This document shows, piece by piece, positions 254 through 58,283 of a DNA stretch of 58,283 nucleotides. A model generated the notes under the pieces. That model had not been told where the DNA came from and did no database searches. It saw only the letters and a list, made by a program, of their open reading frames with translations. Position 1 is the first letter of the stretch. Each line of letters begins with the position of its first letter. A program made the translations under genes and the position numbers. This stretch comes from a virus. The stretch covers positions 1-58,283 of the IMG/VR virus record IMGVR_UViG_3300020477_000026. One strand, written 5' to 3'.

Positions 254-359
254 TAACCCCTTGATATTACAGGAAGTTGACCCGGGTCAAAGGGTTAACT
301 CATTGATATTACAGGAGAAATTAATTTAAAGTTTTTTTTAACTACTTGATTTTACAGGG
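254..359 (+). repeat. Three direct copies of a 21-base iteron-like repeat
   Basis: Copies at 254-274, 296-316 and 339-359 share TAAC, three variable bases, then TTGATATTACAGGA (third copy TTGATTTTACAGGG). Start-to-start spacing is 42 and 43 bases, about four helical turns, so a bound protein would sit on one face of the DNA. A fourth copy lies at 1501-1521, on the far side of the cytosine-free tract. The tract begins at the base after the last C of copy three. Spacing and number resemble replication-origin iterons or operator sites; which is not known. Confidence 0.8.
277..290. promoter_or_regulatory. Perfect 14-bp palindrome TTGACCCGGGTCAA
   Basis: A perfect dyad lying between the first two 21-base repeats. 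Each half contains the TTGACC hexamer used as -35 in the early promoters, so it could be a dimeric operator or two back-to-back -35 boxes. No good -10 is seen at 17 bases on either side, which favours an operator reading. Confidence 0.5.
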
Positions 360-378
360 TTTTTGAAAAAAATAAATG

Positions 379-407
379 TTGTGTTAAATTAAATTATATA
401 ATATAAT
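379..407 (+). promoter_or_regulatory. Candidate C-free promoter and AT-rich unwinding region
   Basis: Two overlapping perfect TATAAT boxes (397-402 and 402-407) lie in a 40-base almost pure A/T stretch; TTGTGT at 379-384 is 17 bases upstream of the second. The usual -35 TTGACA cannot be written without C, and TTGTGT is a plausible C-free substitute. Transcription would start near 414, just before the first island gene. The same A/T stretch could serve as a DNA-unwinding element next to the iterons. Confidence 0.5.
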
Positions 408-426
408 AATTATAGTAAAAAATTAA

Positions 427-666
427 ATGAGAGAAATGAAAATGAAAAATGTAAATGAAGTTTTTGAAATTGAAGTAAATGAAGAAGATGTTTTTGAGAA
501 TGGTGTGTTAGTAATTGAAGATGTAAGTAATGAGGAGGGTGATGATAGTGGAGTGTTAGTGTATAGTTATAAAGATGTGTATGTATTGATGAGTTTTGAT
601 TTTGGTGGTAGTTTGTGTGAATGTGATGTGTATAGTAGTTTAGATGAAGTAAAGGAGGTGTTATAA
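427..666 (+). CDS. Cytosine-free gene 1, acidic 79-aa protein
   Basis: First gene of the cytosine-free island. The product contains no Pro, Thr, Ala, His or Gln, because every codon for those residues needs C. It is very acidic (many Asp/Glu; e.g. EIEVNEEDVFENG) with alternating hydrophobic strands and one Cys pair (LCECDVY). Start is uncertain: ATG at 427, 436 or 442; none has a strong ribosome site, GAGAGAA before 436/442 being the best. The stop overlaps the next ATG (TAATG). A small acidic β-rich early protein could be a DNA mimic, but acidity also follows from the available codons. No known family recognised. Confidence 0.7.
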   Translation: MREMKMKNVNEVFEIEVNEEDVFENGVLVIEDVSNEEGDDSGVLVYSYKDVYVLMSFDFGGSLCECDVYSSLDEVKEVL

Positions 667-731
667 TGAGTATAGTAAATGATGTTGTTGTGTGGTTTGA
701 AGTATTATTGTGGAGTTATGGAGTAATGTGA
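666..731 (+). CDS. Cytosine-free mini-gene, 21-aa hydrophobic peptide
   Basis: ATG at 666 shares the A of the previous stop (TAATG) and is preceded by a perfect AAGGAGG ribosome site at 653-659, the best in the island. The product, MSIVNDVVVWFEVLLWSYGVM, is hydrophobic and Trp/Val-rich, long enough to be a short membrane-associated helix. It ends at TGA 729-731. The strong translation signal and tight coupling are the evidence that it is real; function unknown. Confidence 0.55.
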   Translation: MSIVNDVVVWFEVLLWSYGVM

Positions 732-803
732 AATAAAAAAGTTGTTGAGTTGAGTTTGAAGATGTGGTATGGTTAATATAGTGAAAATAAAGAGAGAATT
801 AGA

Positions 804-1145
804 ATGTTAAAATATGAAATGAGTGAGTTGAAAGAAGTTAGTGTTGATGAGTTGTTGAAGATTATTGGTTGGGATATTAGTGATTGGTTTGAAGGTGAAG
901 TATTTGAAAGTGGTGTGTATAAAATTGAAGTTGGTAGTAGAGGTGAAATAGAGGGTGTAAGTAAAGTTGAAGTAGTTGATGGTGTGTTTGAAGTAAAGAG
1001 TGTTGAAGAGATGTTGGATAGTTGTAAGGATGAAGAAGAGAGAGAAGAAATGGAAGATTGGTGTTATGTAGAGTTAGATGATGGTGTTGTGAATGTTTGT
1101 GAGTTTGAAGAATATGGATATGATTATTATAGAGTGAGGGGGTAA
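804..1145 (+). CDS. Cytosine-free gene 2, acidic 113-aa protein
   Basis: Second full-length gene in the C-free island, again with no Pro, Thr, Ala, His or Gln. Strongly acidic (stretches such as CKDEEEREEMEDW), with a central EIEGVSKVEVVDGVFEVK segment that reads as β-strands and a Tyr-rich end (EYGYDYYRVRG). A purine-rich GAGAGAA lies about 10 bases before the ATG. Two Cys are present (CKDE, CYVE, CEFE gives three). The family is not recognised; it resembles its island neighbours in composition only. Possibilities are a DNA-mimic/anti-defence protein or a host-takeover protein; neither is shown. Confidence 0.75.
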   Translation: MLKYEMSELKEVSVDELLKIIGWDISDWFEGEVFESGVYKIEVGSRGEIEGVSKVEVVDGVFEVKSVEEMLDSCKDEEEREEMEDWCYVELDDGVVNVCEFEEYGYDYYRVRG

Positions 1146-1163
1146 ATTAGGTATTGTGTTGAA

Positions 1164-1448
1164 GTGGATAGTGTGGTAAGATTAGATATGATGAAAAAAG
1201 AGAGAGAGTTGAATATGATTGAGATGAAATTGAGTGAGATGGATGAGTGGATGGTTGGTGTTAATGATGTAGTAGAGGAGAGTGGTGTTTGGAGGTTTTT
1301 GTTGGATGATGATTGTATAGTTATAGAGGGGGTGAAAGTGGATAGTGTAGATGAAGAAGTGGTGAAGTATAGTAGTGAAGAGTTAGGTTATGAGTTTTGG
1401 GTGAGTAAGAATTATGAATATTGGAATATTAATGTGGGAGGGGGTTAA
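1164..1448 (+). CDS. Cytosine-free gene 3, 94-aa protein
   Basis: Third long frame of the island, GTG start at 1164 or ATG at 1188/1191; the ribosome site does not decide between them. No Pro, Thr, Ala, His or Gln. The N-terminal third (KKERELNMIEMKLSEMDEW) reads as a charged helix, the rest as strands rich in Val, Asp, Trp and Tyr, ending NINVGGG. It stops 28 bases before the island ends and the terminator hairpin begins. No family recognised. Confidence 0.65.
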   Translation: MDSVVRLDMMKKERELNMIEMKLSEMDEWMVGVNDVVEESGVWRFLLDDDCIVIEGVKVDSVDEEVVKYSSEELGYEFWVSKNYEYWNINVGGG

Positions 1449-1470
1449 AAATTTAAAATAATTTAAAATA

Positions 1471-1526
1471 AAAAATCCTTCAGGATCAAGGGGTTACGGG
1501 TAACTGCTTGATTCTAAAGGACTTTT
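1471..1526 (+). terminator. Terminator hairpin closing the C-free transcription unit
   Basis: Left arm AAAATCCTTCAGGATCAAG (1472-1490) pairs with CTTGATTCTAAAGGACTTTT (1507-1526) with few mismatches; the loop contains an inner GTTAC/GTAAC pairing. T residues close the 3' side (1523-1526). The first cytosine after the island (1477) is in the left arm, so the C-free state ends exactly where base-paired structure is needed. The right arm is also part of the fourth 21-base repeat. Confidence 0.6.
1501..1521 (+). repeat. Fourth copy of the 21-base repeat
   Basis: TAACTGC followed by TTGATTCTAAAGGA aligns without gaps to the three copies at 254-359 (TAAC, three variable bases, TTGATATTACAGGA). It lies immediately outside the right end of the cytosine-free tract, so the tract is bracketed by this repeat family on both sides. 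Confidence 0.7.
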
Positions 1527-2610: not shown

Positions 2611-3471
2611 ATGGCTAAGAAAATTTCAAAGAATGGTAACGTATACTACACTTCGAACGATTCGAAGGGCCGTAGTGCATTCGATCCTAGTTCGTCAGAG
2701 GAGTTCGTCGACTACTACATCAGTGACGACGAGATTCGTGCAAAGCTGGACAAGCGGTTCAGTGTACTAGAGCGTGTTACGCACAAGTGCATCAACGGAG
2801 ACATCTCGTCATTGATCGTGTATGGTCCTGCTGGTGTAGGCAAGTCTTTCGGTGTAAAGGCTGCTCTGGACAATGCAGACTGCCGTTATAAGTTCGTATC
2901 TGGGTATGCTACTAAGATCGGACTGATCAAGACTCTGTACAGCTATCGTCATAATGGTGATGTTGTCGTGTTTGATGACTGTGACTCAGTGTTATTTGAT
3001 GAGACTTCCCTGTCTATCTTGAAGGCTATCTGTGACACTACGGATGTACGTAACGTGTCGTACATTAGTGATAAGCCTATCTATCCTGAGGATGAGACTG
3101 GTGTGATCCCTTCTACGTTTGAGTTTGAGGGTACGGTGATCTTTATCACTAATACGGACTTTGAGAACGTATCTAAGCGTCTTGAGCCTCATACGAAAGC
3201 TATGATGTCACGTAGTGTGTACATCGACTTGGCTATGCGGACTCGTCGGGACTACTTGGTGCGTATCCATCAGGTGATTGATGCTGGTATGCTGGACATG
3301 TTGGGCCTTGCTGTTGACGAAAAGGCCGACATCATAGAGTATATTAATACGAACTATGAGCGGATGAAGGAGCTTTCTTTGAGAGTTGTAGTCAAACTTG
3401 CACAGTTACGTAAGGGTGATGCACAGTTCTGGAAAGAAGAAGCTGACGTAACCGAACTAAGGAGAAGCTAA
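2611..3471 (+). CDS. AAA+ family ATPase
   Basis: 286 residues from ATG 2611 (GAGAGG ribosome site); an in-frame GTG at 2593 lies in the ribosome-site region and is rejected. Walker A GPAGVGKS at about 72-79, Walker B DVVVFDD at about 117-123, sensor-1 VIFITNTD at about 177-183, and an Arg-rich MMSRSV segment that may supply the arginine finger. No nuclease or DNA-binding domain is evident. It heads the rightward early operon behind a phased repeat array, which raises the possibility that it binds that array, but this is inference. Role could be DNA handling, remodelling or a defence-related ATPase. Confidence 0.88.
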   Translation: MAKKISKNGNVYYTSNDSKGRSAFDPSSSEEFVDYYISDDEIRAKLDKRFSVLERVTHKCINGDISSLIVYGPAGVGKSFGVKAALDNADCRYKFVSGYATKIGLIKTLYSYRHNGDVVVFDDCDSVLFDETSLSILKAICDTTDVRNVSYISDKPIYPEDETGVIPSTFEFEGTVIFITNTDFENVSKRLEPHTKAMMSRSVYIDLAMRTRRDYLVRIHQVIDAGMLDMLGLAVDEKADIIEYINTNYERMKELSLRVVVKLAQLRKGDAQFWKEEADVTELRRS

Positions 3472-5472: not shown

Positions 5473-5939
5473 GATCTGATTGTGATATTGATCAGGTATA
5501 CACAGAGACAACACAGGCTGTAATCCGTGACTACAAGGTTATTGACAAACAGATCGAGCACTTTCCTCAAATTAATGGTGGCAAGTGTATTATCACTGGC
5601 ATGGCTCGGGTTGGTAGTAGTTGGTATCAAGATCGTGGCTATGCATTTTGGACTGAAGATTTGAGTTTAAGAGAGGCTTGTGACAGGGCATCGGAACGAG
5701 TTAAAACTAATATTGCTGTTCAGAACAGGCCGTTGGTTGTCCGTTCTAAGACGGCTACAAGATGCCGTATCATCGATGGCAAGATCGTTAAGAAGCCTAA
5801 TAAGCAGAAGTGGACATGGAATGAGTGTAGACAATTCAAACACAGACCTTGGTGGGGATACAACTACCCAGACCCTTGCAAAGAGCAGTTCCGACAGCTC
5901 GACGACGGTCGTAGAAAAGGTTACCCCCCTTCGAGTTGA
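5406..5939 (+). CDS. Secreted Cys-rich hypothetical protein, 177 aa
   Basis: Overlaps the previous gene by 67 bases in another frame. N-terminus MRNIWCALPIIAGICTATEV reads as a signal peptide. The mature region has five or more Cys (SDCDID, GGKCIITGMARV, REACDRA, ATRCRII, NECRQF, DPCKEQ), consistent with a disulfide-bonded periplasmic protein. No family recognised. Confidence 0.6.
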   Translation: MRNIWCALPIIAGICTATEVAIGSDCDIDQVYTETTQAVIRDYKVIDKQIEHFPQINGGKCIITGMARVGSSWYQDRGYAFWTEDLSLREACDRASERVKTNIAVQNRPLVVRSKTATRCRIIDGKIVKKPNKQKWTWNECRQFKHRPWWGYNYPDPCKEQFRQLDDGRRKGYPPSS

Positions 5940-6186
5940 TCCTGATGACGGACGACATGATATAACGTGGTACGTCAAATGGTTTGCTACTGTGATAATG
6001 ATCTTTGCAGTTTCCTTCCGTGCAGTGGAGGAAGCTCCTAAGATCATAGACCAGTCGTTAACACTTGTCGGGTTGATAGGATGGTTCTTTGTGGCTTACA
6101 GATGGCATGATAGAGCGCTAATGTTAGTCAATGCTGTGGCTATTCCTATCATGATTATGGCAGTATTGAGATGGTTGTTTAGCTAA
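5821..6186 (+). CDS. Small integral membrane protein, three predicted helices
   Basis: The frame is open from 5680, but codons before 5821 overlap the previous gene and look non-coding, so ATG 5821 (MSVDNSNTDLGGDTTTQTL) is preferred. About 50 soluble Ser/Thr-rich residues precede three hydrophobic segments (WYVKWFATVIMIFAVSF; SLTLVGLIGWFFVAYRW; ALMLVNAVAIPIMIMAVL). The KWFAT...W...DRALMLVNA pattern resembles small membrane proteins of marine phages (DUF6552-like, unverified). Holin is possible by topology but unproven. Confidence 0.6.
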   Translation: MSVDNSNTDLGGDTTTQTLAKSSSDSSTTVVEKVTPLRVDPDDGRHDITWYVKWFATVIMIFAVSFRAVEEAPKIIDQSLTLVGLIGWFFVAYRWHDRALMLVNAVAIPIMIMAVLRWLFS

Positions 6187-6220
6187 ATAGTGTGCCGGAT
6201 TAATAACGGATTTCATAGAC

Positions 6221-6436
6221 ATGACACAAAAGGCAAAAGCAGTTCAGCTGCAGTCTGCGTTTCTGGAATTTATAGATAAGGCTCGAGAACTTGGTTATGA
6301 ATTAGATAGATTTGCATCTATCATTGCACATCCGAGAGTGGATAGCAAGAACTCAATTAATAACAATGTAACACTGAGAGTGGGAGATTATGTTGACAAA
6401 GTGGAACAAGTTGTATTTTCAACATCTAAGGATTGA
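6221..6436 (+). CDS. Hypothetical protein, 71 aa
   Basis: Starts 34 bases after the membrane protein, with only a weak ribosome site. Helical N-terminus (QLQSAFLEFIDKARELGYEL) and polar C-terminus. It is the first small gene of the oxygenase/radical SAM island and overlaps the next gene by 47 bases. No family recognised. Confidence 0.55.
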   Translation: MTQKAKAVQLQSAFLEFIDKARELGYELDRFASIIAHPRVDSKNSINNNVTLRVGDYVDKVEQVVFSTSKD

Positions 6437-6950
6437 GGTAGACAAAGAGAAGATTCTCGATGTCATCCAGAATCAGACCCAAGATTGGCAGGTAGTATGG
6501 GGCCACAAAGACTCCCTACTACCTGTTCTTGGTTTTCAACAAGAAAGGCCAGAGCCATATGAAGATCACAGAGTGGTTACGCAGTATCTTAGATCGGTGG
6601 ATATTATGGGAAGAACAGACCGCAAAGCGCTACAAAAAGAACAGATATCCGTTCTAAAGCAGCTAGGGATTAGAGAGAAGTCATACTTCTCACTGTTCTT
6701 CACTGAGCCTTGTGGGATTGCACCACACACAGATAATATGCAATGCTCGATTAACATTCCTATCAAAGGTGTAGATGATCCAATGTTCTTCGAGGACATT
6801 GATGAATGTACGTCCCCTACACTACCTTTTCTTATGAACGCACAGCAAAAACATTACGCAGAGCAGAGTAAGCAACGACGATACTATTTCCGTATTCATT
6901 TCGAAAAAAGTTATGAGGAGATCCAATGTCAGCTACCGACTTTTACCTGA
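6390..6950 (+). CDS. Putative 2OG-Fe(II)-oxygenase-like (HxD cupin-fold) protein
   Basis: 186 residues; GGGAG lies eight bases before ATG 6390. Residues about 102-126 (LFFTEPCGIAPHTDNMQCSI) carry the H-x-D iron-ligand pair H113/D115 on a β-strand followed by a second strand, as in the double-stranded β-helix of 2OG-Fe(II) oxygenases and Asp/Asn β-hydroxylase relatives. The distal His/Arg are less clear, perhaps within RRYYFRIHFE near 167-176. First of a run of such genes; substrate unknown. Confidence 0.55.
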   Translation: MLTKWNKLYFQHLRIEVDKEKILDVIQNQTQDWQVVWGHKDSLLPVLGFQQERPEPYEDHRVVTQYLRSVDIMGRTDRKALQKEQISVLKQLGIREKSYFSLFFTEPCGIAPHTDNMQCSINIPIKGVDDPMFFEDIDECTSPTLPFLMNAQQKHYAEQSKQRRYYFRIHFEKSYEEIQCQLPTFT

Positions 6951-7522
6951 AGATACCCTCTCAGGTATTCCCCCAATCCCTTAGAAATGAAATTTGGATG
7001 AGAATCCAAGACAACGATTGGGTACCTCGAAAAAGAGTCCTCGAGGACGATAACTATCAAGGTAACATAAGTTGGTGTAAAACGACAATCCATCCATCGA
7101 TGGAAGCTAGATATAAAGAGATATTCTCTAGTAATCTATCTGATCAGCTCAATGAGATCATTAGACCTCAACAGGTACTATTGTCATTGCAGAAGATAGA
7201 TAAGAACAAAGCGTTTGGTGTTCACTTTGATCAGGACATATGTTCGATCCAAATGGTACTAGGAGGTGACAAGTTCACTCCTGTTAAGTTTTGGAATGCC
7301 GATCCTAGAGCCGATAGGTTGTTTCTGGAGTGGGGTAACTTCCCATACCCAGATGCTACATTGAACTACTCTAATGATATATTTTACCTAAATACCACTA
7401 AGTGGCACGACAATAATGGACTCAAGGGTGATAGGTATCTGCTCAGATTCATTCTTAATTTGAATCAACAGAGCCATCTTAACTATGAGTACTTCAAAGA
7501 GAAGTTGAATGGAATACTATGA
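6926..7522 (+). CDS. Putative 2OG-Fe(II) oxygenase-like protein
   Basis: 198 residues; GAGGAGATCC precedes the ATG, which overlaps the upstream gene by 25 bases. H100-x-D102 in FGVHFDQDICSIQMVLGG, distal H161 in TTKWHDNNGLKGDRYLLRFI with R170 or R174 as the candidate 2-oxoglutarate-binding Arg. This is the His-x-Asp...His...Arg order of the superfamily. Substrate unknown; its stop overlaps the radical SAM start, implying coupled synthesis. Confidence 0.6.
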   Translation: MSATDFYLKIPSQVFPQSLRNEIWMRIQDNDWVPRKRVLEDDNYQGNISWCKTTIHPSMEARYKEIFSSNLSDQLNEIIRPQQVLLSLQKIDKNKAFGVHFDQDICSIQMVLGGDKFTPVKFWNADPRADRLFLEWGNFPYPDATLNYSNDIFYLNTTKWHDNNGLKGDRYLLRFILNLNQQSHLNYEYFKEKLNGIL

Positions 7523-8429
7523 ACTGGCGCCTGAGGATAATCACTTCCACAGTATAGTAGCAGATATAACGCACAAGTGCAATATGAATTGTGCAAATTG
7601 CTACATCCCTAATAGAGACGTACCAGATATAGATCTTCACAGGCTTTTAGATTCTATCTCTAAGCTGCCTACGCGTACGTGGATAAGATTGATAGGTGCA
7701 GAACCTACTATGCATCCTAATCTACCGTATATAATACGTGCAATCATTGGACTAGGGCACCGTTGTTCATTAACAACCAACGGTCTCAAACTAGCGTCTA
7801 ACAAATATCTCGACCAGTTAGTCGATGCTGGAGCATACTATTTTCTTATCAGTATGAACGGAGCAGACGACGATATCATTTACAAGGAGCTAGACAGTGG
7901 CTCATATGCTGGGTTAAAGGTAAGGGCGCTAGAGAACGTGTTAAAACGCAAATTAACCGTGAATACAGGCACTATTATAGCAAAAGGTGTCAACGAGATT
8001 ACATTAAAGAGACAACCTGAGTTAGTCGTTGAGGTGGCTAAACGTGTAGGGATAAGGTTCGATCAAAACCCATGGAAACGTATCACACCTGTCCTACGTA
8101 TTAAGAGTGTAGGTGATATAGGTAGAAACATGGGTGGCAGTGCTACGTATCAAATGGAAGACATGATTGATATGTGCCGCAAACAATTTGGAGTAAAAGA
8201 ATTCACAAGAGTCGAAAGCGGGTTGAACTTGCTGAAGCATGGTGATGGACCTTCTTATACATTTGACATACATACAGATGTAGGTTTAATTCATGTCAGG
8301 CTTGTTGACTGGGCTGTAGATGAAGATGGAGTAGTTGATGCAGGAAACAAAAACAGAGGACGATTCACACAAGATTTTAAAATTGCCCCTTTCTTCGAAC
8401 ACGTTAAGAAAAACGAGTTTGGATACTAA
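7509..8429 (+). CDS. Radical SAM enzyme
   Basis: 306 residues. The cluster motif THKCNMNCANCYIP gives C24-x3-C28-x2-C31, binding the [4Fe-4S] that cleaves S-adenosylmethionine. It is followed by an SAM-binding GAEPTMHPNLP (a GGE-like motif) and a partial TIM-barrel pattern. No second SPASM-type Cys set is evident at the C-terminus. The start overlaps the oxygenase-like gene upstream by 14 bases and the TauD-like gene follows directly, so the three act in one pathway by context. Target (peptide, base or sugar) unknown. Confidence 0.88.
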   Translation: MEYYELAPEDNHFHSIVADITHKCNMNCANCYIPNRDVPDIDLHRLLDSISKLPTRTWIRLIGAEPTMHPNLPYIIRAIIGLGHRCSLTTNGLKLASNKYLDQLVDAGAYYFLISMNGADDDIIYKELDSGSYAGLKVRALENVLKRKLTVNTGTIIAKGVNEITLKRQPELVVEVAKRVGIRFDQNPWKRITPVLRIKSVGDIGRNMGGSATYQMEDMIDMCRKQFGVKEFTRVESGLNLLKHGDGPSYTFDIHTDVGLIHVRLVDWAVDEDGVVDAGNKNRGRFTQDFKIAPFFEHVKKNEFGY

Positions 8430-9129
8430 ATTAATTCGACAGAAGTTCAATAAGGACGGGTTTGTTGTATTGCCTCCATGTGGTGCATGGATAAAAGATA
8501 TATCCAATATCTTTGATGGTAATGTGAAAGCTGATAAACATTATCTCAAGGTACGTACGGAGCATGGATATAACGAACACAAAGATATACAAATTGTTTC
8601 AGAGTCGGAACTATTTGGAGAGACTGACGTCCCGTGGCATGCAGATTGGTCTTATGGTCCTGGTCCTTATGATGGCACCATCTTGCAGTGCAATTTCGAT
8701 CAAGCAAACACTCCGACACACTTCGTGGACATGCACACCGTCTACAACGAAGCCTGCAGCGTCTTTGGGAGGGCTCAAGTCGATGGGCTACGTCTCATGT
8801 CGGGTCAGTATTCCCCTCCCGATGATCTAGCATATTGTTTTGACCCGCACTCATTCCGTTATCTAAAACGACATCCAAAAGAGAGAAAAATAGTATTTGA
8901 TCATCCGTTATCAAACCTACCTGTAATGTATTTCAGTCCTGGAACAATAACTAAATATTCTAAAGGGTTCGACATAGACAAATACACTGAGCTGCTAGAC
9001 AAAAACAGCTTTACACACTACTGGGAGCCTGGACAAACAGTTATATGGGATAATTTAAGATATCACCATCGTCGTAGTGAGTTTAATGGTAAACGTGAAC
9101 TGTTGAGGATACAATTCAAATATGCGTGA
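8419..9129 (+). CDS. TauD/TfdA-like 2OG-Fe(II) dioxygenase
   Basis: The frame opens at 8335 inside the radical SAM gene, but conserved sequence begins near LIRQKFNKDGFVVLPP, so TTG 8419 is the likely start (236 aa). Ligands: H and D in VPWHADWSYGPGPYDG, distal His in VIWDNLRYHHRRSEF and Arg in ELLRIQFK. The WHxDxS motif and C-terminal WDN...HH...R are typical of the TauD/TfdA (taurine/2,4-D dioxygenase) family. Substrate cannot be read. Start codon uncertain. Confidence 0.75.
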   Translation: MDTKLIRQKFNKDGFVVLPPCGAWIKDISNIFDGNVKADKHYLKVRTEHGYNEHKDIQIVSESELFGETDVPWHADWSYGPGPYDGTILQCNFDQANTPTHFVDMHTVYNEACSVFGRAQVDGLRLMSGQYSPPDDLAYCFDPHSFRYLKRHPKERKIVFDHPLSNLPVMYFSPGTITKYSKGFDIDKYTELLDKNSFTHYWEPGQTVIWDNLRYHHRRSEFNGKRELLRIQFKYA

Positions 9130-10261
9130 AATAGTAATGGTGTTGAGGGATCTGAAGGGTGTTGAGGATCCTTTAGAAGTGAAGTGGGAAGTAGAAGACA
9201 ATCCTCTAGGTCTCGAGTGGTTCTATGCTCTCAAGCAAAACTTTATAGGTCCGGATGCAATGTGTCCGTTACACCCACTAGAAAAGTCACACTGCCTTAA
9301 TGGTTGGATTGATACAGTGGGTGGTACAAACAATCCTGGTCTAAGAGATATCCCTACAATGTGTGATGAGTTAAACTGGGCTATACGTACAGTAAACAAC
9401 TTCTATAAAGACAAAGGGTATCCACATATAGATTTACACTTTACACCAGAAGCTCTGCAGAGTGATCAATACAGAGACTTAATGAACCAGCTACACCATC
9501 ACTTTGAACTATTGATAGGTCAGGTGTGGGATGTTAGTGACTGGTTCAAGATGGCAAACAGAGAGACAATATATGCTATTCGTGTGCTAAACAATAACTG
9601 CCATCAGATAGAGAATATAATTAACTCAGTCGACTTACAAAAGATTAGTTCTGACAGGAAGACACTACATCAATCGATCATGTTGTCATTCAATGGTATC
9701 AACTGGTTGCATCCAGATAAAGAGAAGAAGCAATACATGAGATATAATGTCACAGACGATGCATATGATTATTGGTCACCTAACTATGAATGGGGGCACC
9801 TGTATGCATATTACTGTCAGCTTGGTAAGAGGCATGTAGAAGCGTTCTACGACGAAGACCCCCACATTGATCACAAGAACATAAGTGGTATAAGATACTT
9901 CACTGGTGAAGCTACAATGAACCTATGTACTATGTTTGCTCCTGGATCTGGTATGCCTAAAGAACAGAGACCTGAGTTTATAAAGTGGCTGGTTGATAAT
10001 GGATTTGATCCTGAGGATAAGAAGAACGCATATGGTCATGGTGTTGTAGCCAGGATTGACCTGCCAATGGATTATAAACAGTACCACGATGAGATAATTA
10101 AACGTAATGATGTATACAAACTTGGATGGAGAGAAAATGGTGTTGAGTCTATCAGAGAGTTTGACTACACGTGGAAAGAGCAAGTGCTCGGAGAAATACA
10201 GATATCAAAGGACATAGATAATGACGAGTTGGAAGCTAAAAGAGCTAGACAGAGAAACTAA
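9122..10261 (+). CDS. Large protein of unknown function in the oxygenase island
   Basis: 379 residues, start overlapping the TauD-like stop by eight bases. No signal peptide or membrane segment. Rich in Trp, Tyr and His with blocks such as HCLNGWIDTVGGTNNPGLRD, HIDLHFTPEAL and GRYFTGEATMNL-like segments (actual: IRYFTGEATMNLCTMFAPGS). No family recognised. Its position between dioxygenase and GNAT-like genes suggests a partner, scaffold or substrate-binding protein of the same pathway. Confidence 0.75.
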   Translation: MREIVMVLRDLKGVEDPLEVKWEVEDNPLGLEWFYALKQNFIGPDAMCPLHPLEKSHCLNGWIDTVGGTNNPGLRDIPTMCDELNWAIRTVNNFYKDKGYPHIDLHFTPEALQSDQYRDLMNQLHHHFELLIGQVWDVSDWFKMANRETIYAIRVLNNNCHQIENIINSVDLQKISSDRKTLHQSIMLSFNGINWLHPDKEKKQYMRYNVTDDAYDYWSPNYEWGHLYAYYCQLGKRHVEAFYDEDPHIDHKNISGIRYFTGEATMNLCTMFAPGSGMPKEQRPEFIKWLVDNGFDPEDKKNAYGHGVVARIDLPMDYKQYHDEIIKRNDVYKLGWRENGVESIREFDYTWKEQVLGEIQISKDIDNDELEAKRARQRN

Positions 10262-10865
10262 CAGAGACTTTGTCGATCTAATAAGATGGGGAATGACATT
10301 CTCTGAAGATCGTAATAAGGATTGGTTTCAACATCTAGTAAATGAACAACACTTATATCATAAATGGACATTGTGTTATGATGAGGATAAGCTCGTAGCA
10401 TTTAGTGCAGTGCAGACACATAAGTTCCCACAAGGATATGCACGACTACTAACTCGTACGTACTACATTCCAGATATCAGGCAAAGTATTGTATCTGCTC
10501 CACACAACCTAAGACCATCAGGTGTGATGGCTGAATATCAATATAAGATGATGAAGGGCTATAAGAGATTTGTCTCTATGGAGCATGTACCTAATAAAGC
10601 AGGAACACGCAGAGCAGCATTACAAAAGGTAATGAATAAGACCATTGGGTTTAAGGTCCTCGAAAGGATGTATCAAACATTCATCGGGGAGGAGGATGAT
10701 TGGCGGCAATGGCAATCAATAGCAACAGAAGTACCAGAAGAGGAATTTGATCTGCCATCGATATCACGAGATGAGTACCTTTCTAGGTTCGTAGTCCCAC
10801 GTCATACCATCGACGAGTTCGAGCCTTCTACAAACGTCGTCCGTGAACTGACCATCAACCCTTAG
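10221..10865 (+). CDS. Putative GNAT-like acyltransferase
   Basis: 214 residues. The part around 48-82 (HKWTLCYDEDKLVAFSAVQT then ARLLTRTYYIPDIRQ) resembles the β2-β3-β4 core of GNAT N-acetyltransferases, and RRAALQKVMNKTIGFKVLER resembles the final helix/strand with the IGF signature. The acetyl-CoA loop (Q/RxxGxG/A) is not obvious. Overlaps the upstream gene by 41 bases. Its last ~100 bases also overlap the convergent gene at 10764-11636. Low confidence in the family. Confidence 0.5.
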   Translation: MTSWKLKELDRETNRDFVDLIRWGMTFSEDRNKDWFQHLVNEQHLYHKWTLCYDEDKLVAFSAVQTHKFPQGYARLLTRTYYIPDIRQSIVSAPHNLRPSGVMAEYQYKMMKGYKRFVSMEHVPNKAGTRRAALQKVMNKTIGFKVLERMYQTFIGEEDDWRQWQSIATEVPEEEFDLPSISRDEYLSRFVVPRHTIDEFEPSTNVVRELTINP

Positions 10866-11636
10866 TGTATATCTAAATCCTGGCTCAGGATCTACTCCAT
10901 GAAAGTCTCTGTTATTAAAGAAATATGACTTGGCATCCGGATCAAGATATATCTTCTCCTTGTTTATAGGATCCCATATGAATGACTTGCGTCCAGCCTT
11001 GAAGAACAGGTTCATGTTATGGTCTCTGTGAGGTTCTACGTGTGCATCTCTATGCACAGGAACCCTCTGACCTGGGAATGTGGTAAAGAACAACACTCTT
11101 CCGATTGTCTTGAATGGTAGTGTCTCAATATAATCAATGATCTTTGGAAAGTACTTTTGTGCTTCGGGCGTCCACTCTGGACTTGTCTTATCCTTCTTGA
11201 AGAATGCATTGTGCTTTAGATACAATCCAAAGAACCATGGTATCATACATGGGAATGCAAAATAGAAGTATGTGTACAGAGCTTGCCGTGGCTCGTCTGC
11301 ATTGGCCATTATGAAGTCTATATCTTTCTTGTGCTCACCATCCCAATCGTAGTAGTCAAGGTCTCTGTATATCTCTGTCCAGCCTTTCAGACCAAGTTCT
11401 TTTTCTTCTTCTGGAATCATCGACCCCATAGTCATACCTTGCTTCATTGAACCACACATGGCAAGGCCTCTTAGACATTCGTGGTGCAACTTATCGTCCC
11501 ACTTTGTCTCTCTAAACCTGTCCATGTTAATTATTGGTCTACGTTTTGCTCCTACACCACAAACAGGAAGCTCTTCATAATCAAAGTGCATCATCCTATT
11601 TGAGCCTTCACCTATTATCTGTGGCTCCATTACCAT
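10764..11636 (-). CDS. Putative 2OG-Fe(II)/Asp β-hydroxylase-like protein
   Basis: 290 residues. VPVHRDAHVEPHRDHNMNLF contains two H-x-D pairs (HRD), and RDFHGVDPEPGFRYTLRVDG supplies the distal His and Arg in the usual order. Membrane-like aromatic block TYFYFAFPCMIPWFFGLYL near the middle is probably a hydrophobic core. First leftward gene after the strand switch; tail overlaps the GNAT-like gene on the other strand. Substrate unknown. Confidence 0.6.
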   Translation of the reverse strand: MVMEPQIIGEGSNRMMHFDYEELPVCGVGAKRRPIINMDRFRETKWDDKLHHECLRGLAMCGSMKQGMTMGSMIPEEEKELGLKGWTEIYRDLDYYDWDGEHKKDIDFIMANADEPRQALYTYFYFAFPCMIPWFFGLYLKHNAFFKKDKTSPEWTPEAQKYFPKIIDYIETLPFKTIGRVLFFTTFPGQRVPVHRDAHVEPHRDHNMNLFFKAGRKSFIWDPINKEKIYLDPDAKSYFFNNRDFHGVDPEPGFRYTLRVDGQFTDDVCRRLELVDGMTWDYEPRKVLIS

Positions 11637-11917
11637 CCCATCATCATCCTCGTTTCCTCCGGCACCATCTCAATAGAAAATGGTGGATCAAATACTGTGT
11701 CGACCACAACAAATGTAATCCCTGGTACCATTCCAGCCTGTTTAATGTTCTGCACTATCTCGTCTGCAAATGGACAGAACGCACTTGTTAGTGTATGTGT
11801 TATAGTGACCTTAGTCTCTTCAATGTCAATTGCGTATATCAAACCGAGATCAAAAACATTAACACTGATCTCTGGATCATACACCTCTCTCAAGTTTTCT
11901 ATTATCTCATCACGCAC
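11630..11917 (-). CDS. MIP18/DUF59 (SufT/PaaD-like) Fe-S assembly protein
   Basis: 95 residues. The N-terminal LREVYDPEISVNVFDLGLIY and following TITHTLTSAFCPFADEIVQNI are diagnostic of the DUF59/MIP18 family: DPE..VN..DLGLIY and TLTS..CP with the conserved Cys. Cellular members (SufT, PaaD) help load iron-sulfur clusters. It sits amid iron-dependent oxygenases and downstream-encoded Fe-S and DUF1289 proteins, so it may support maturation of phage or host Fe proteins such as the radical SAM enzyme. Confidence 0.82.
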   Translation of the reverse strand: MRDEIIENLREVYDPEISVNVFDLGLIYAIDIEETKVTITHTLTSAFCPFADEIVQNIKQAGMVPGITFVVVDTVFDPPFSIEMVPEETRMMMGW

Positions 11918-12140
11918 CGAACTCAGGCCCCCACTTGTGAACCCAGTTCTCAGCTAGATCTTCTGCCCATCGAATATTCTTATCTGTGCACGGTCTCTTT
12001 TCAATTATGTAATTATCTTCGTACATATAAACCCAAAACGTGTTTACGTGTCTCCAGATTACAGCCTTACGTTTATTCTCTGGCATCTCATACGTAGACC
12101 ATATGTGGTGGTTTTGGGACTCTTCTTCATCCTGCGTCAT
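11910..12140 (-). CDS. Hypothetical protein, 76 aa
   Basis: The frame opens at 12182, but AAGGAG lies just before ATG 12140 (MTQDEEESQNHHIWSTYEMP), which is chosen. Trp- and charge-rich (KAVIWRHVNTFWVYMYEDNY). Overlaps genes on both sides by a few bases, as expected in this operon. No family recognised. Confidence 0.65.
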   Translation of the reverse strand: MTQDEEESQNHHIWSTYEMPENKRKAVIWRHVNTFWVYMYEDNYIIEKRPCTDKNIRWAEDLAENWVHKWGPEFGA

Positions 12141-12870
12141 GTAACATATACTCCTTAATCTGATAGAATGGTGTCTTTGCAAATGCTAGACTAAACAATA
12201 TTCTATCCTCTCCAAACGAATGAGCTCTATGGGTCTTCAATGAGTTGAGCAATGTAGGTACAGGATAGCCTTCATGATGTACTGTGTAGCTATACTTAGC
12301 ATATATTTTAGACTCACACAGTTCTACAAACTTAGGATCAAACATACCCTCATATATCTTATCATCACCTTGGCATAGCTTATAGTCAACGTCTGTGTAT
12401 TCCATATAGTCATCCTCATGACCTTTGACGACAACATTTACGACACACGTCTTACGTTTGTCAGTATGCCACCAGTCTGAAGGATTGTGTCCAAACTTGC
12501 TCTTGAAATTTCTGTATGTGAATTGTAGGTCCGTTCTATCTTGCAAAATGTGTTCTGGTATACCCAACCGACGTCCAATGTCTTGTCCAATATACTCAGT
12601 CCACTCCCACCAGTTTAAATCAACTGCAATCCACGGTTTGAATGAGTTCTTCTGAAAATTGTATCTTGTATCTCTCTCGTGATCTTCTGGACCTCTGATA
12701 ATATACACACCTAGCTTATCAACAGTCTTTGGATTCTTGCCATGTGGTATCCATGTTGAGTGTTCTTTGACTAACATATCATGGCACTTTTTTAGCTTAC
12801 GTAAATCAATATCACCTATGCATGCATGTACCATTTGATCATCAGCTAGCAATATCTTCTTCATTTCCAA
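12127..12870 (-). CDS. Putative 2OG-Fe(II) oxygenase-like protein
   Basis: 247 residues (start at the first or third codon, MEMKKILL). H-x-D in SDWWHTDKRKTCVVNVVVKG and distal His/Arg in THRAHSFGEDRILFSLAFAK, separated by about 85 residues as in related phage proteins at 6926 and 38046. N-terminal part has LGVYIIRGPEDHERDTRYNF. Substrate unknown. Confidence 0.55.
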   Translation of the reverse strand: MEMKKILLADDQMVHACIGDIDLRKLKKCHDMLVKEHSTWIPHGKNPKTVDKLGVYIIRGPEDHERDTRYNFQKNSFKPWIAVDLNWWEWTEYIGQDIGRRLGIPEHILQDRTDLQFTYRNFKSKFGHNPSDWWHTDKRKTCVVNVVVKGHEDDYMEYTDVDYKLCQGDDKIYEGMFDPKFVELCESKIYAKYSYTVHHEGYPVPTLLNSLKTHRAHSFGEDRILFSLAFAKTPFYQIKEYMLHDAG

Positions 12871-13073
12871 GGCAGTTGCTCCTCCAAAGCTACATCAGCC
12901 ATTTCAATCCATTCCCTATCGTCATCACTAACGATCCTCCACATCTTCTTTATCCAAGCCATCTGGTCTTCAATTGTGGATCTCATTTCTGGCTTGAGAT
13001 GATCGTTTCTGATAAAATGATTCTCCAACGAATTCATCTTATCAGTCATCACTTCTTTAAGTGTTACCTCCAT
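12861..13073 (-). CDS. Hypothetical protein, 70 aa
   Basis: Longest opening is to 13097, but GGAG in GGAGAAGAAG precedes ATG 13073 (MEVTLKEVMTDKMNSLENHF), which is preferred. Entirely helical, charged, Met-rich. Overlaps the resolvase gene end by 17 bases. No family recognised. Confidence 0.6.
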   Translation of the reverse strand: MEVTLKEVMTDKMNSLENHFIRNDHLKPEMRSTIEDQMAWIKKMWRIVSDDDREWIEMADVALEEQLPWK

Positions 13074-13665
13074 CTTCTTCTCCATATGTACAGACATAAT
13101 AACTATCTATGATATCAGAGATAGGATTACTTCCAGTATACTGCATAATATCTTGTAGGTAAACATTAGTTTCAGCCTCGAATGCTCTACGCATTAGATC
13201 TTTATTGGCGTTACCTTTGCCTGTTGCATGTTTTTTGATTTGTGTAGGTGCTACAGGGAAAACAGGAATATCCATCCTGCTAAGTCTGTACTTCAGAATC
13301 CCTGTATTCTCACCTATATGGAAGACACGACCAGTAGCCGCGTAAGCATAATCTTCTATGTAAACTTCATATACTTCATAGCTTCTAATGATATCAATAG
13401 CCCAACTACTGATATATTTGTACCGTTCGATACTATCCAGGGCGGGCAACTCGTGACCAAAGAATAGAAATGGTGCATTCCAATACTCATCTATTAGTTT
13501 CTTCCTGTTGGTTAGATAATGAATGTCATAGGTCTGAAATGAGTCCACATATGGATCATTCACAGAAACACATATAGCAGGACTTGTGGTGCTATAATCA
13601 ATACCGACGACGTTATTGGCCTTCTTCGTCGTCCCAATCGAAATCATCATCTCCTCTATATCCAT
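13057..13665 (-). CDS. RuvC-like Holliday-junction resolvase
   Basis: About 200 residues; several ATGs (13701 to 13647) are possible and the overlap with the upstream gene argues for an inner one. RNase H-fold motifs are clear: VVGIDYSTTSPAICV (first catalytic Asp on strand 1), VYIEDYAYAATGRVFHIGEN (second acidic residue plus helix), TQIKKHATGKGNANKDLM, and ISDIIDSYYVC (final Asp pair). This is the crossover-junction endonuclease layout; it would resolve branched DNA before packaging, the job done in T4 by gp49. Confidence 0.8.
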   Translation of the reverse strand: MDIEEMMISIGTTKKANNVVGIDYSTTSPAICVSVNDPYVDSFQTYDIHYLTNRKKLIDEYWNAPFLFFGHELPALDSIERYKYISSWAIDIIRSYEVYEVYIEDYAYAATGRVFHIGENTGILKYRLSRMDIPVFPVAPTQIKKHATGKGNANKDLMRRAFEAETNVYLQDIMQYTGSNPISDIIDSYYVCTYGEEDGGNT

Positions 13666-13816
13666 CATCTTCATCCCAATCCAAAAACAACTGCTCACCA
13701 CAATAAGGACAATACTCTACGTTGTATTCTTCTTCATCATCTTCCTGTGGCAACAGTTCGATTGCAAACTCTGCATAACAGCTTTCACACGTATACTCTT
13801 CTACAGGGTCAGCCAT
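13613..13816 (-). CDS. Small zinc-ribbon-like acidic protein
   Basis: 67 residues with CESC near residues 10-13 and CPYCGEQ near 36-39, a four-Cys zinc ribbon, followed by a very acidic tail (FLDWDEDDGYRGDDDFDWDD). AGGAG ribosome site. A TATAAATA octamer lies just upstream (13827-13834) within the end of the reductase gene; it may be a late promoter or chance. Probably binds a protein or nucleic-acid partner; role unknown. Confidence 0.7.
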   Translation of the reverse strand: MADPVEEYTCESCYAEFAIELLPQEDDEEEYNVEYCPYCGEQLFLDWDEDDGYRGDDDFDWDDEEGQ

Positions 13817-37151: not shown

Positions 37152-37377
37152 AAATCACCTCTGCGTCACTCTTTGCGGATTTCAAACTCGTACGATGAAA
37201 GGGGACATGATCAAGGATTTGTATCTTGTACTTCTTACGATAATGATCGTTAGGATGCACAGTAGCTACCTTCATATCCATTACTCCATCTTGACCATGA
37301 CGTAATGCATATCCTTCATAATATACAAACCCAAGGTCACTCCTCATTCTACACCATCTTATAGGATCAGTCAACAT
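37132..37377 (-). CDS. Hypothetical protein, 81 aa
   Basis: Starts on the base after the 37378 stop region. MLTDPIRWCRMRSDLGFVYY, then β-strand-like YKIQILDHVPFHRTSLKSAK. Small soluble β/α protein; no family recognised. Confidence 0.55.
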   Translation of the reverse strand: MLTDPIRWCRMRSDLGFVYYEGYALRHGQDGVMDMKVATVHPNDHYRKKYKIQILDHVPFHRTSLKSAKSDAEVIYASTTR

Positions 37378-57286: not shown

Positions 57287-57988
57287 TCAGTTTAAGATAG
57301 ACAGTCCTCTTGCAATGTTGAGGAACTCACGACGCATCTCAGATGACTGCTCAGCAAACACACCCTCGACAGCTAGTGTACAAGTGCTTGATCCAGTATC
57401 TTGAATCCCTCTACTCTTTACACAATAGTGCACCGCTTCAAGATATACAGCAACATCAGGTGTACCAGTAACAAACGAGATCGTTGCAGCAATCTGCTCA
57501 GTCAGTCTCTCTTGGACTTGAGGGCGCTTTGCAAAGAACTCTACGATACGATTCAACTTAGACAATCCAAGAACCTTAGCCTTAGGAATGTATGCAACAC
57601 AGGCCTTACCATCAATCACAACAAGATGGTGTTCACAGTTAGATTGGACATTGACATTACGTTCAACCACAAATGAGCCAGGTGAGTTCTTACCCATCTT
57701 ATTCTCAATCGTAGTACACTTAGGAAACTGGCTGTAATCCAATCCCCAAAAGATTTCTTTGACCCACATCTTAGCAACACGATTAGGTGTATCCATCAGT
57801 GAGTCGTCAGTAAGATCAAGACCGAGCGCCTTTAGTGCCTCAGTCATCTGACCTTTGATGAGCTCAATCTTTTGCTCAGCAGGCATATTTACCTTATCGG
57901 TCATTGGTGTTTCAAGACCAATGCTTTCCAGATGGTCTTTTACTTTCTGACCCAATACAGGATCAGACTTATAATCGGGGTGGCTCAT
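57287..57988 (-). CDS. folE: GTP cyclohydrolase I
   Basis: 233 residues from ATG 57988, which overlaps the upstream stop (ATGA) and has GGAGAAAAG before it; an in-frame start at 58018 is inside that gene. Zn ligands: Cys and His in VQSNCEHHLVVIDGKACVAY and Cys in VHYCVKSRGIQDTGSS; GLSKLNRIVEFFAKRPQVQE is the conserved core. Opens GTP to dihydroneopterin triphosphate, first step of preQ0 and of folate synthesis. Confidence 0.95.
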   Translation of the reverse strand: MSHPDYKSDPVLGQKVKDHLESIGLETPMTDKVNMPAEQKIELIKGQMTEALKALGLDLTDDSLMDTPNRVAKMWVKEIFWGLDYSQFPKCTTIENKMGKNSPGSFVVERNVNVQSNCEHHLVVIDGKACVAYIPKAKVLGLSKLNRIVEFFAKRPQVQERLTEQIAATISFVTGTPDVAVYLEAVHYCVKSRGIQDTGSSTCTLAVEGVFAEQSSEMRREFLNIARGLSILN

Positions 57989-58283
57989 CTTTTCTCCTTC
58001 TCCGGTGGCAGTTCCCACGGGAATATAATCCAGTCTTTAGTATCTATTGATTTAGCTTTGAAGTCAACATTAAATATACTGGACGTCCTTTCCCACAATG
58101 CTGCGGTTTTTATATTTTGTTTGACACGGCGTGGACCTAGAACATTGGCATCTGCAATATCTTCGAGTATTTGTGAGAATGTTTCACCAGAGTCGTTGAT
58201 ATCGTCCACTAGCAGAACCTGTTGATCACGAGACAAATAAAGACTTTCTTTGATTGCTCCGTCCCTCAATTGCCAAGTAATAC
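57985..58283 (-). CDS. Phosphoribosyltransferase, C-terminal part (truncated by window)
   Basis: The frame is open to the window edge (…ITWQLRDGAIKES), so the 5' end is missing. QVLLVDDINDSGETFSQILE is the PRPP-binding motif of type I phosphoribosyltransferases (D-D-x-x-x-S/T-G-x-T), followed by a hood-like IKTAALWERTSS and KDWIIFPWE typical of xanthine/hypoxanthine-type enzymes. Probably salvages purine bases, or supplies 7-deazaguanine nucleotides; the base specificity is unknown. Confidence 0.82.
   Translation of the reverse strand, partial: ITWQLRDGAIKESLYLSRDQQVLLVDDINDSGETFSQILEDIADANVLGPRRVKQNIKTAALWERTSSIFNVDFKAKSIDTKDWIIFPWELPPEKEKR

Follow-up and report, generated by a model that had tools for sequence, protein, structure and literature searches.

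The + strand of the viral DNA analysed here, a stretch of 58,283 nt referred to as the window, lacks C completely from position 356 to position 1476. This run had been noted in the preliminary description and is borne out by base counts: there are 0 C in 1,121 nt, the - strand is without G in the same interval, and C accounts for 0.227 (~23%) of the bases elsewhere in the window. Assuming independent bases, the probability of such a run is ~10^-125. The other C-free runs of the window do not exceed 39 nt, and its G-free runs reach 55 nt at most. Because the 189 non-coding nt between and around the genes of the island are likewise devoid of C, the constraint is not about codons; a codon-level cause was rejected accordingly, and the earlier proposal of a constraint on DNA or RNA is upheld. 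That the island might be a one-off is countered by a C-free island of nearly equal size in an unrelated virus, recovered in two independent assemblies. C-free islands thus look like a real, so far undescribed type of viral element. We consider the chances about even that islands of ~1 kb are a general, convergent element of bacterial and archaeal viruses, which would render strand and transcript immune to a widespread cytosine-directed activity through genes written with A, G and T only, whose products do without Ala, His, Pro, Gln and Thr. As to its role, our leading though tentative reading, at a probability of roughly 40%, is that the island represents a central early control region, most likely a T4 oriE-type replication origin that is opened by transcription and whose exposed strand has been purged of C. 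Natural three-base genes recurring in unrelated viruses would reveal a new selective force acting against each C on one strand.

Among 158 comparison viral loci (1.36 Mb), the minimum of C or G per 1,000 nt was 85 and the longest run free of C or of G was 94 nt. C-free runs of at least 183 nt occurred in only 8 of 369 gammaproteobacterial genomes and mostly represented tandem repeats or resided in reduced or low-C genomes. The preliminary description had proposed to look for the island in related phages, but the search came back empty: no C-free run of ~100 nt or longer was found in 49 records of T4-like relatives chosen via gp43 or in 48 records sharing the iteron described below, and no C-free island was present in the 112 kb checked of Phage C48C1, which is related at the gene left of the island. 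Nothing similar was found in the open-licence PMC texts searched for a viral C-free island, in agreement with the earlier statement that no such phage element has been described. The phage island is known from just one assembly; another record (G005) matches window positions 34115-58283 with 99.95% identity but ends short of the island. This single source is what could speak for chance, low complexity or an assembly artefact, but the low probability of the run, the intact coding frames, a sequence that is neither a simple nor a tandem repeat, and the identity of the second island in two separate metagenome assemblies leave hardly any room for such an explanation.

The window is a fragment of a T4-like phage, encoding gp43, gp41, UvsX, sliding clamp and clamp loader and a class II ribonucleotide reductase; the nearest named gp43 proteins are 47-48% identical and come from cyanophages. 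Record G005 extends the phage sequence by 18 kb, so that 76 kb of an incomplete genome are known. Island and surroundings comprise the following features:

1-166, - strand: partial leftward gene (MHKHEANIGDVVRSWDF...), adjoining the island
177-227, - strand: leftward promoter/leader arm, TTGACC-17-GATGAT, inverted copy of 1531-1581
254-274, + strand: iteron 1, TAACCCCTTGATATTACAGGA
277-290: perfect 14-nt palindrome TTGACCCGGGTCAA between iterons 1 and 2
296-316, + strand: iteron 2, at a spacing of 42 nt from iteron 1
339-359, + strand: iteron 3, at a spacing of 43 nt from iteron 2, containing C 355
356-1476, + strand: C-free island, 1,121 nt, 0 C
379-407, + strand: candidate promoter TTGTGT-17-TATAAT inside the C-free run, predicted from sequence, with a putative transcription start at ~413
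427-666, + strand: ORF1, 79 aa, acidic (pI 4.05), start may be 436 or 442
666-731, + strand: ORF2, 21 aa, preceded by AAAGGAGGTG, start overlapping the ORF1 stop (TAATG)
804-1145, + strand: ORF3, 113 aa, acidic (pI 4.05)
1164-1448, + strand: ORF4, 94 aa, acidic (pI 4.11)
1476-1521: iterons 4 (inverted) and 5 (direct), forming a strong hairpin (z ~-5) and containing C 1477
1531-1581, + strand: rightward promoter/leader arm
1593-1856, + strand: first rightward gene, ordinary C content, 87 aa
2611-3471, + strand: AAA ATPase, phrog_1250 (T4-like phages)

The iteron is a 21-nt repeat (TAACnnnTTGATnTTACAGGa), of which three copies lie to the left of the island and one inverted and one direct copy to its right. 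The C-free stretch fills exactly the interval between the inner repeats, which face inward, and the bounding C's (bases 355 and 1477) belong to copy 3 and inverted copy 4, respectively. Transcription diverges at the island, with gene 1-166 on the - strand and the genes from 1593 onwards on the + strand, and a 51-nt inverted repeat (177-227 vs 1531-1581, 86%) supplies both outward promoters with their leaders. The hairpin at 1476-1521 is terminator-like for transcripts of the - strand. The product of the leftward gene shares 38% identity with a hypothetical Phage C48C1 (Kyanoviridae) protein; no homologues were found for the 157-aa protein encoded at 1940-2413. The iteron also lies between divergent promoters in two further viral records (L091 and L094) in which the island is absent, so that iteron and island are separable. 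Of note, the repeat TAAGTnnTTGATTTTACAGGG(TTTTT) is present in 48 IMG/VR stretches from many different viruses (L091:576-631; L094:4024-4079; L095-L140), arranged either directly near divergent promoters or as inverted copies resembling terminators, and in just 13 places across 85,000 prokaryote genomes. It is thus a site common to viruses.

Within the island, open frames are not expected by chance, as stops make up 11.6% of codons in random sequence of island composition. Frames of 79, 113 and 94 aa would arise in random C-free composition with probabilities of 6e-5, 9e-7 and 1e-5, respectively. The frames moreover display a gene-like codon-position bias (G 50% at position 1, A 41% at position 2). 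Judged by these measures, they are real genes, three or four in number and small. Their products are acidic and lack Ala, His, Pro, Gln and Thr, since the codons for these residues need C. ORF1 has a weak match to phrog_12689 (E 0.0012), no homologues of ORF3 were found in phages or IMG/VR, and alignment-free structure prediction was poor for ORF3 and ORF4 (mean pLDDT 45 and 60, respectively).

The second island emerged when IMG/VR was scanned for ~100 C-free bases preceded by a start codon and a strong ribosome-binding site. The collection scans required 14 fixed bases and could thus detect only cases with the given motif on the sense strand. Two records (L207 and L208) were returned, which share one sharply bounded C-free run of 1,024 nt; its three ORFs (78, 107 and 67 aa) are all on the C-free strand. 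They derive from a tailed virus of ~67 kb with terminal redundancy, whose family B polymerase is nearest to those of haloarchaeal tailed viruses (23% identity) and whose promoters look archaeal; it is unrelated to the window phage. The island occupies positions 8,075-9,098, where genes diverge, and lies close to the minimum of the cumulative GC skew at 7,635 (maximum at 37,283). TTAAG-based repeats flank it, and the bounding C's again fall within the repeats. Although the median divergence between the two genomes is 40 bases per 1,000, the island and ~600 bases to its right show 0 or 1 base difference (G478/G479 ~7,876-9,775; L211), which could reflect strong conservation or recent exchange. 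The search motif is present in roughly one gene in a thousand; extrapolation from one independent match suggests, as a guess, that many more islands exist.

The first gene of the archaeal-type island encodes a winged-helix protein, an ordinary-C paralogue of which is encoded just outside (39% identity, E 4e-15; L207:2444-2689 and 1279-1515 for the pair, one with and one without C). Because the same kind of protein is thus written with and without C, the C-less rule belongs to the place. At 24 C sites of the outside paralogue, the island copy carries A 10, G 8 and T 6 times, and replacement of Ala by Ser (4) exceeds that by Val (2), although subsequent substitutions may have obscured the initial ones in a pair of 39% identity. 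In the phage, C has a share of 0.196 at the first codon position of the other + strand genes; in the island, G rises there from 0.311 to 0.502 and T merely from 0.187 to 0.212. This pattern fits avoidance of C and not plain C-to-T conversion. A mutational explanation, in which a cytosine deaminase of host or phage repeatedly turns C of the exposed strand into T, would yield an exact zero together with a sharp strand bias, and the non-template strand of open regions is the usual target of such enzymes. However, T is not the main replacement in either data set, and Q and CGA codons would have turned into stops, yet the frames are intact. Deamination as a route, as suggested in the preliminary description, is therefore disfavoured and we regard it as improbable; the C-to-T exchange that marks deaminase-hypermutated DNA appears neither in the codon-position shares nor in the paralogue pair. 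Bisulfite-type or deamination conversion was likewise rejected, because C is replaced about equally by A, G and T, and the base-call or conversion artefact that had been considered is judged not to apply, even though the phage island comes from one assembly. The winged-helix pair also provides a natural experiment on the adaptation of a protein to a three-base code.

The two readings that we consider most seriously place the constraint on DNA and on RNA, respectively. In both viruses the C-free run continues past the nearest promoter-like site, the promoters having been predicted by eye; 3.2% of comparable AT-rich windows are free of C or G for the phage (57 nt, phage relatives) and 0.11% for the archaeal-type virus (first 41 nt). 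Overrun of the promoters, borders formed by repeats and the position at a skew minimum make us lean towards the DNA level. The competing possibility, nearly as likely as the origin, is that the first early operon has been kept without C, allowing its mRNA to be produced or to persist under conditions in which C-containing RNA would fail. An RNase with C-containing sites (MazF, cutting at ACA, or others), a chain terminator derived from CTP such as the ddhCTP of prokaryotic viperins, or a shortage of CTP might be responsible, and the island genes would then be take-over or counter-defence factors. It is known that mRNAs without ACA withstand MazF, and such mRNAs are in biotechnological use for single protein production. 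They resemble the island in that a base motif which an RNase requires is missing from the transcript, but they are engineered, whereas the island lacks one whole base in coding and non-coding parts and its RNase is only postulated. Viperin-type enzymes of bacteria and archaea have been described as makers of ddh-nucleotides with antiviral activity (PMC9642334). A C-free messenger would explain why the sense strand is the C-free strand and why the predicted mRNA is without C from promoter to terminator in both viruses, and a penalty of this kind would act on every single C. In the phage, ORFs and gaps of the transcript, whose ends are predicted, are C-free up to the terminator-like hairpin at 1476-1521, and C returns only within this hairpin; the archaeal-type island contains, close to its 3' end, a T10 tract that resembles an archaeal terminator. 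Hardly any structure is predicted for the transcripts. On the other hand, the lack of C extends upstream of the recognisable promoters in both viruses, the borders are repeats and not transcript ends, the C-directed agent is only postulated, and the sense orientation of the second island provides no independent evidence, because it was forced by the search motif. Position cannot separate an origin from an early mRNA, since early operons also start at divergence points.

Predicted folding energies are -9 vs -41 kcal/mol per 150 nt for the phage transcript and -2 vs -31 for the archaeal-type one. Selection for an unstructured single strand or RNA, easing unwinding, loading of helicase or SSB, or translation, might do without any C-specific agent, as G-C pairs are impossible in either strand. 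Weak folding is automatic, however, once C is absent, a few C's would hardly matter, and the complete absence of C across 1 kb in two viruses would be left unexplained; we consider this explanation about as improbable as deamination. The total absence of C would fit a penalty on each C better than a graded effect. The preliminary description had also proposed an R-loop-forming origin with maximal GC skew. Its origin part gains from the iterons, the divergence point and the skew minimum of the second virus, but the R-loop part, resting on GC skew, is weakened: the predicted preference for an RNA:DNA hybrid over the duplex places the phage island at the 44th percentile of its own genome and the archaeal-type island in the top 0.6%. 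On this prediction, a simple energetic case for R-loops fails at the phage island but not at the archaeal-type one. Regions of GC-skewed R-loop formation such as human CpG-island promoters resemble the island in that they are transcribed, divergent sites whose sense strand is rich in G and poor in C; they are skewed but not C-free, and the phage island combines an ordinary hybrid preference with depletion of GG (0.61 of expectation).

In the origin model, proteins bound to the flanking repeats would act jointly with transcription from the internal promoter to open the intervening DNA. While the template strand is covered by RNA or being copied, the non-template (+) strand would be exposed as a single strand. 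If an activity of the infected cell targets C in single strands, each C on the exposed strand would be costly, and selection could have purged all C, from genes and gaps alike. Candidate agents are a C-specific nuclease for single-stranded DNA, such as an endonuclease like DenB of T4, or a deaminase with subsequent repair. An active origin, the opening of the strands and an agent directed at C are components that we infer. The origin model is favoured because inward-facing repeats form the borders and divergent promoters within the 51-nt inverted repeat flank the island, because the second virus has a 1,024-nt run with repeats on both sides near its GC-skew minimum, and because the C-free runs exceed the promoter-like sites in both viruses. 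Skew around the phage island is not measurable, since the window extends just 355 nt to its left.

The RepEA/RepEB proteins belong to the T4 oriE-type origin. T4 oriE has evenly spaced iterons and an early promoter, and oriE as well as oriF/oriG lie near points at which transcription changes direction and base composition shifts (PMC3016281). At oriF, an R-loop leaves the non-template strand sensitive to cleavage of single-stranded DNA (PMC3016281), and cytosine-containing single-stranded DNA is cut by T4 DenB (PMC6071114). Like these origins, the island resides in a T4-like phage and combines evenly spaced iterons, early-type promoters and a strand switch (PMC3016281): there are three iteron copies at 42/43 nt plus an inverted and a direct copy, the switch is present at the phage island, and the compositional shift is seen in the archaeal-type virus. 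T4 oriE differs in being located inside gene 5 and in not being C-poor (minimum 150 C per 1,000 nt), whereas the phage island is a 1.1-kb C-free segment with its own genes between the repeats. A relative of DenB was found neither in the known 76 kb of the phage nor in the archaeal-type virus, in a search without positive control and with an incomplete phage genome; this absence from the known parts proves little. If the island is an origin, it would represent a new principle of origin design; if it serves defence, this would indicate that a C-directed nuclease, deaminase or CTP analogue is widespread.

A scan for GAD repeats returned mostly GAA/GAT repeats, and one candidate (L223) was set aside. 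A further record (L220) has a C-free run of 359 nt in one gene and is a weak third case only, because its neighbours are C-poor too. Early genes of AT-rich phages such as L220 and L003 resemble those of the island in being small with little C on the sense strand, but the neighbouring units of L220 have 5-15% C and L003 11%, i.e. the depletion is graded, with no zero over 1 kb and no sharp repeat borders. The L220 locus (8797-13711, - strand) is an array of single-gene cassettes with C at 5-15%, each with a promoter TCGTATATTCACGTATAATAAAAAA, and the T4-like relative L003 carries at 2900-3400 an array of genes with Gly-Ser-Tyr-Asp repeats (GGCTACGGCGATGGC...).

The phage encodes GTP cyclohydrolase I, a QueD-like protein, a QueE-like protein (weak radical SAM match) and a NodU-type carbamoyltransferase (window 57287-58018; L089:4728-5198, 5800-6705 and 7293-8735). 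These genes suggest synthesis of 7-deazaguanine and perhaps modified DNA bases in the phage; should its G be modified, no modified base would be present on the island's - strand. An early cluster at 6390-10261 of the window contains a radical SAM protein, a TauD-type protein and possibly further oxygenases.
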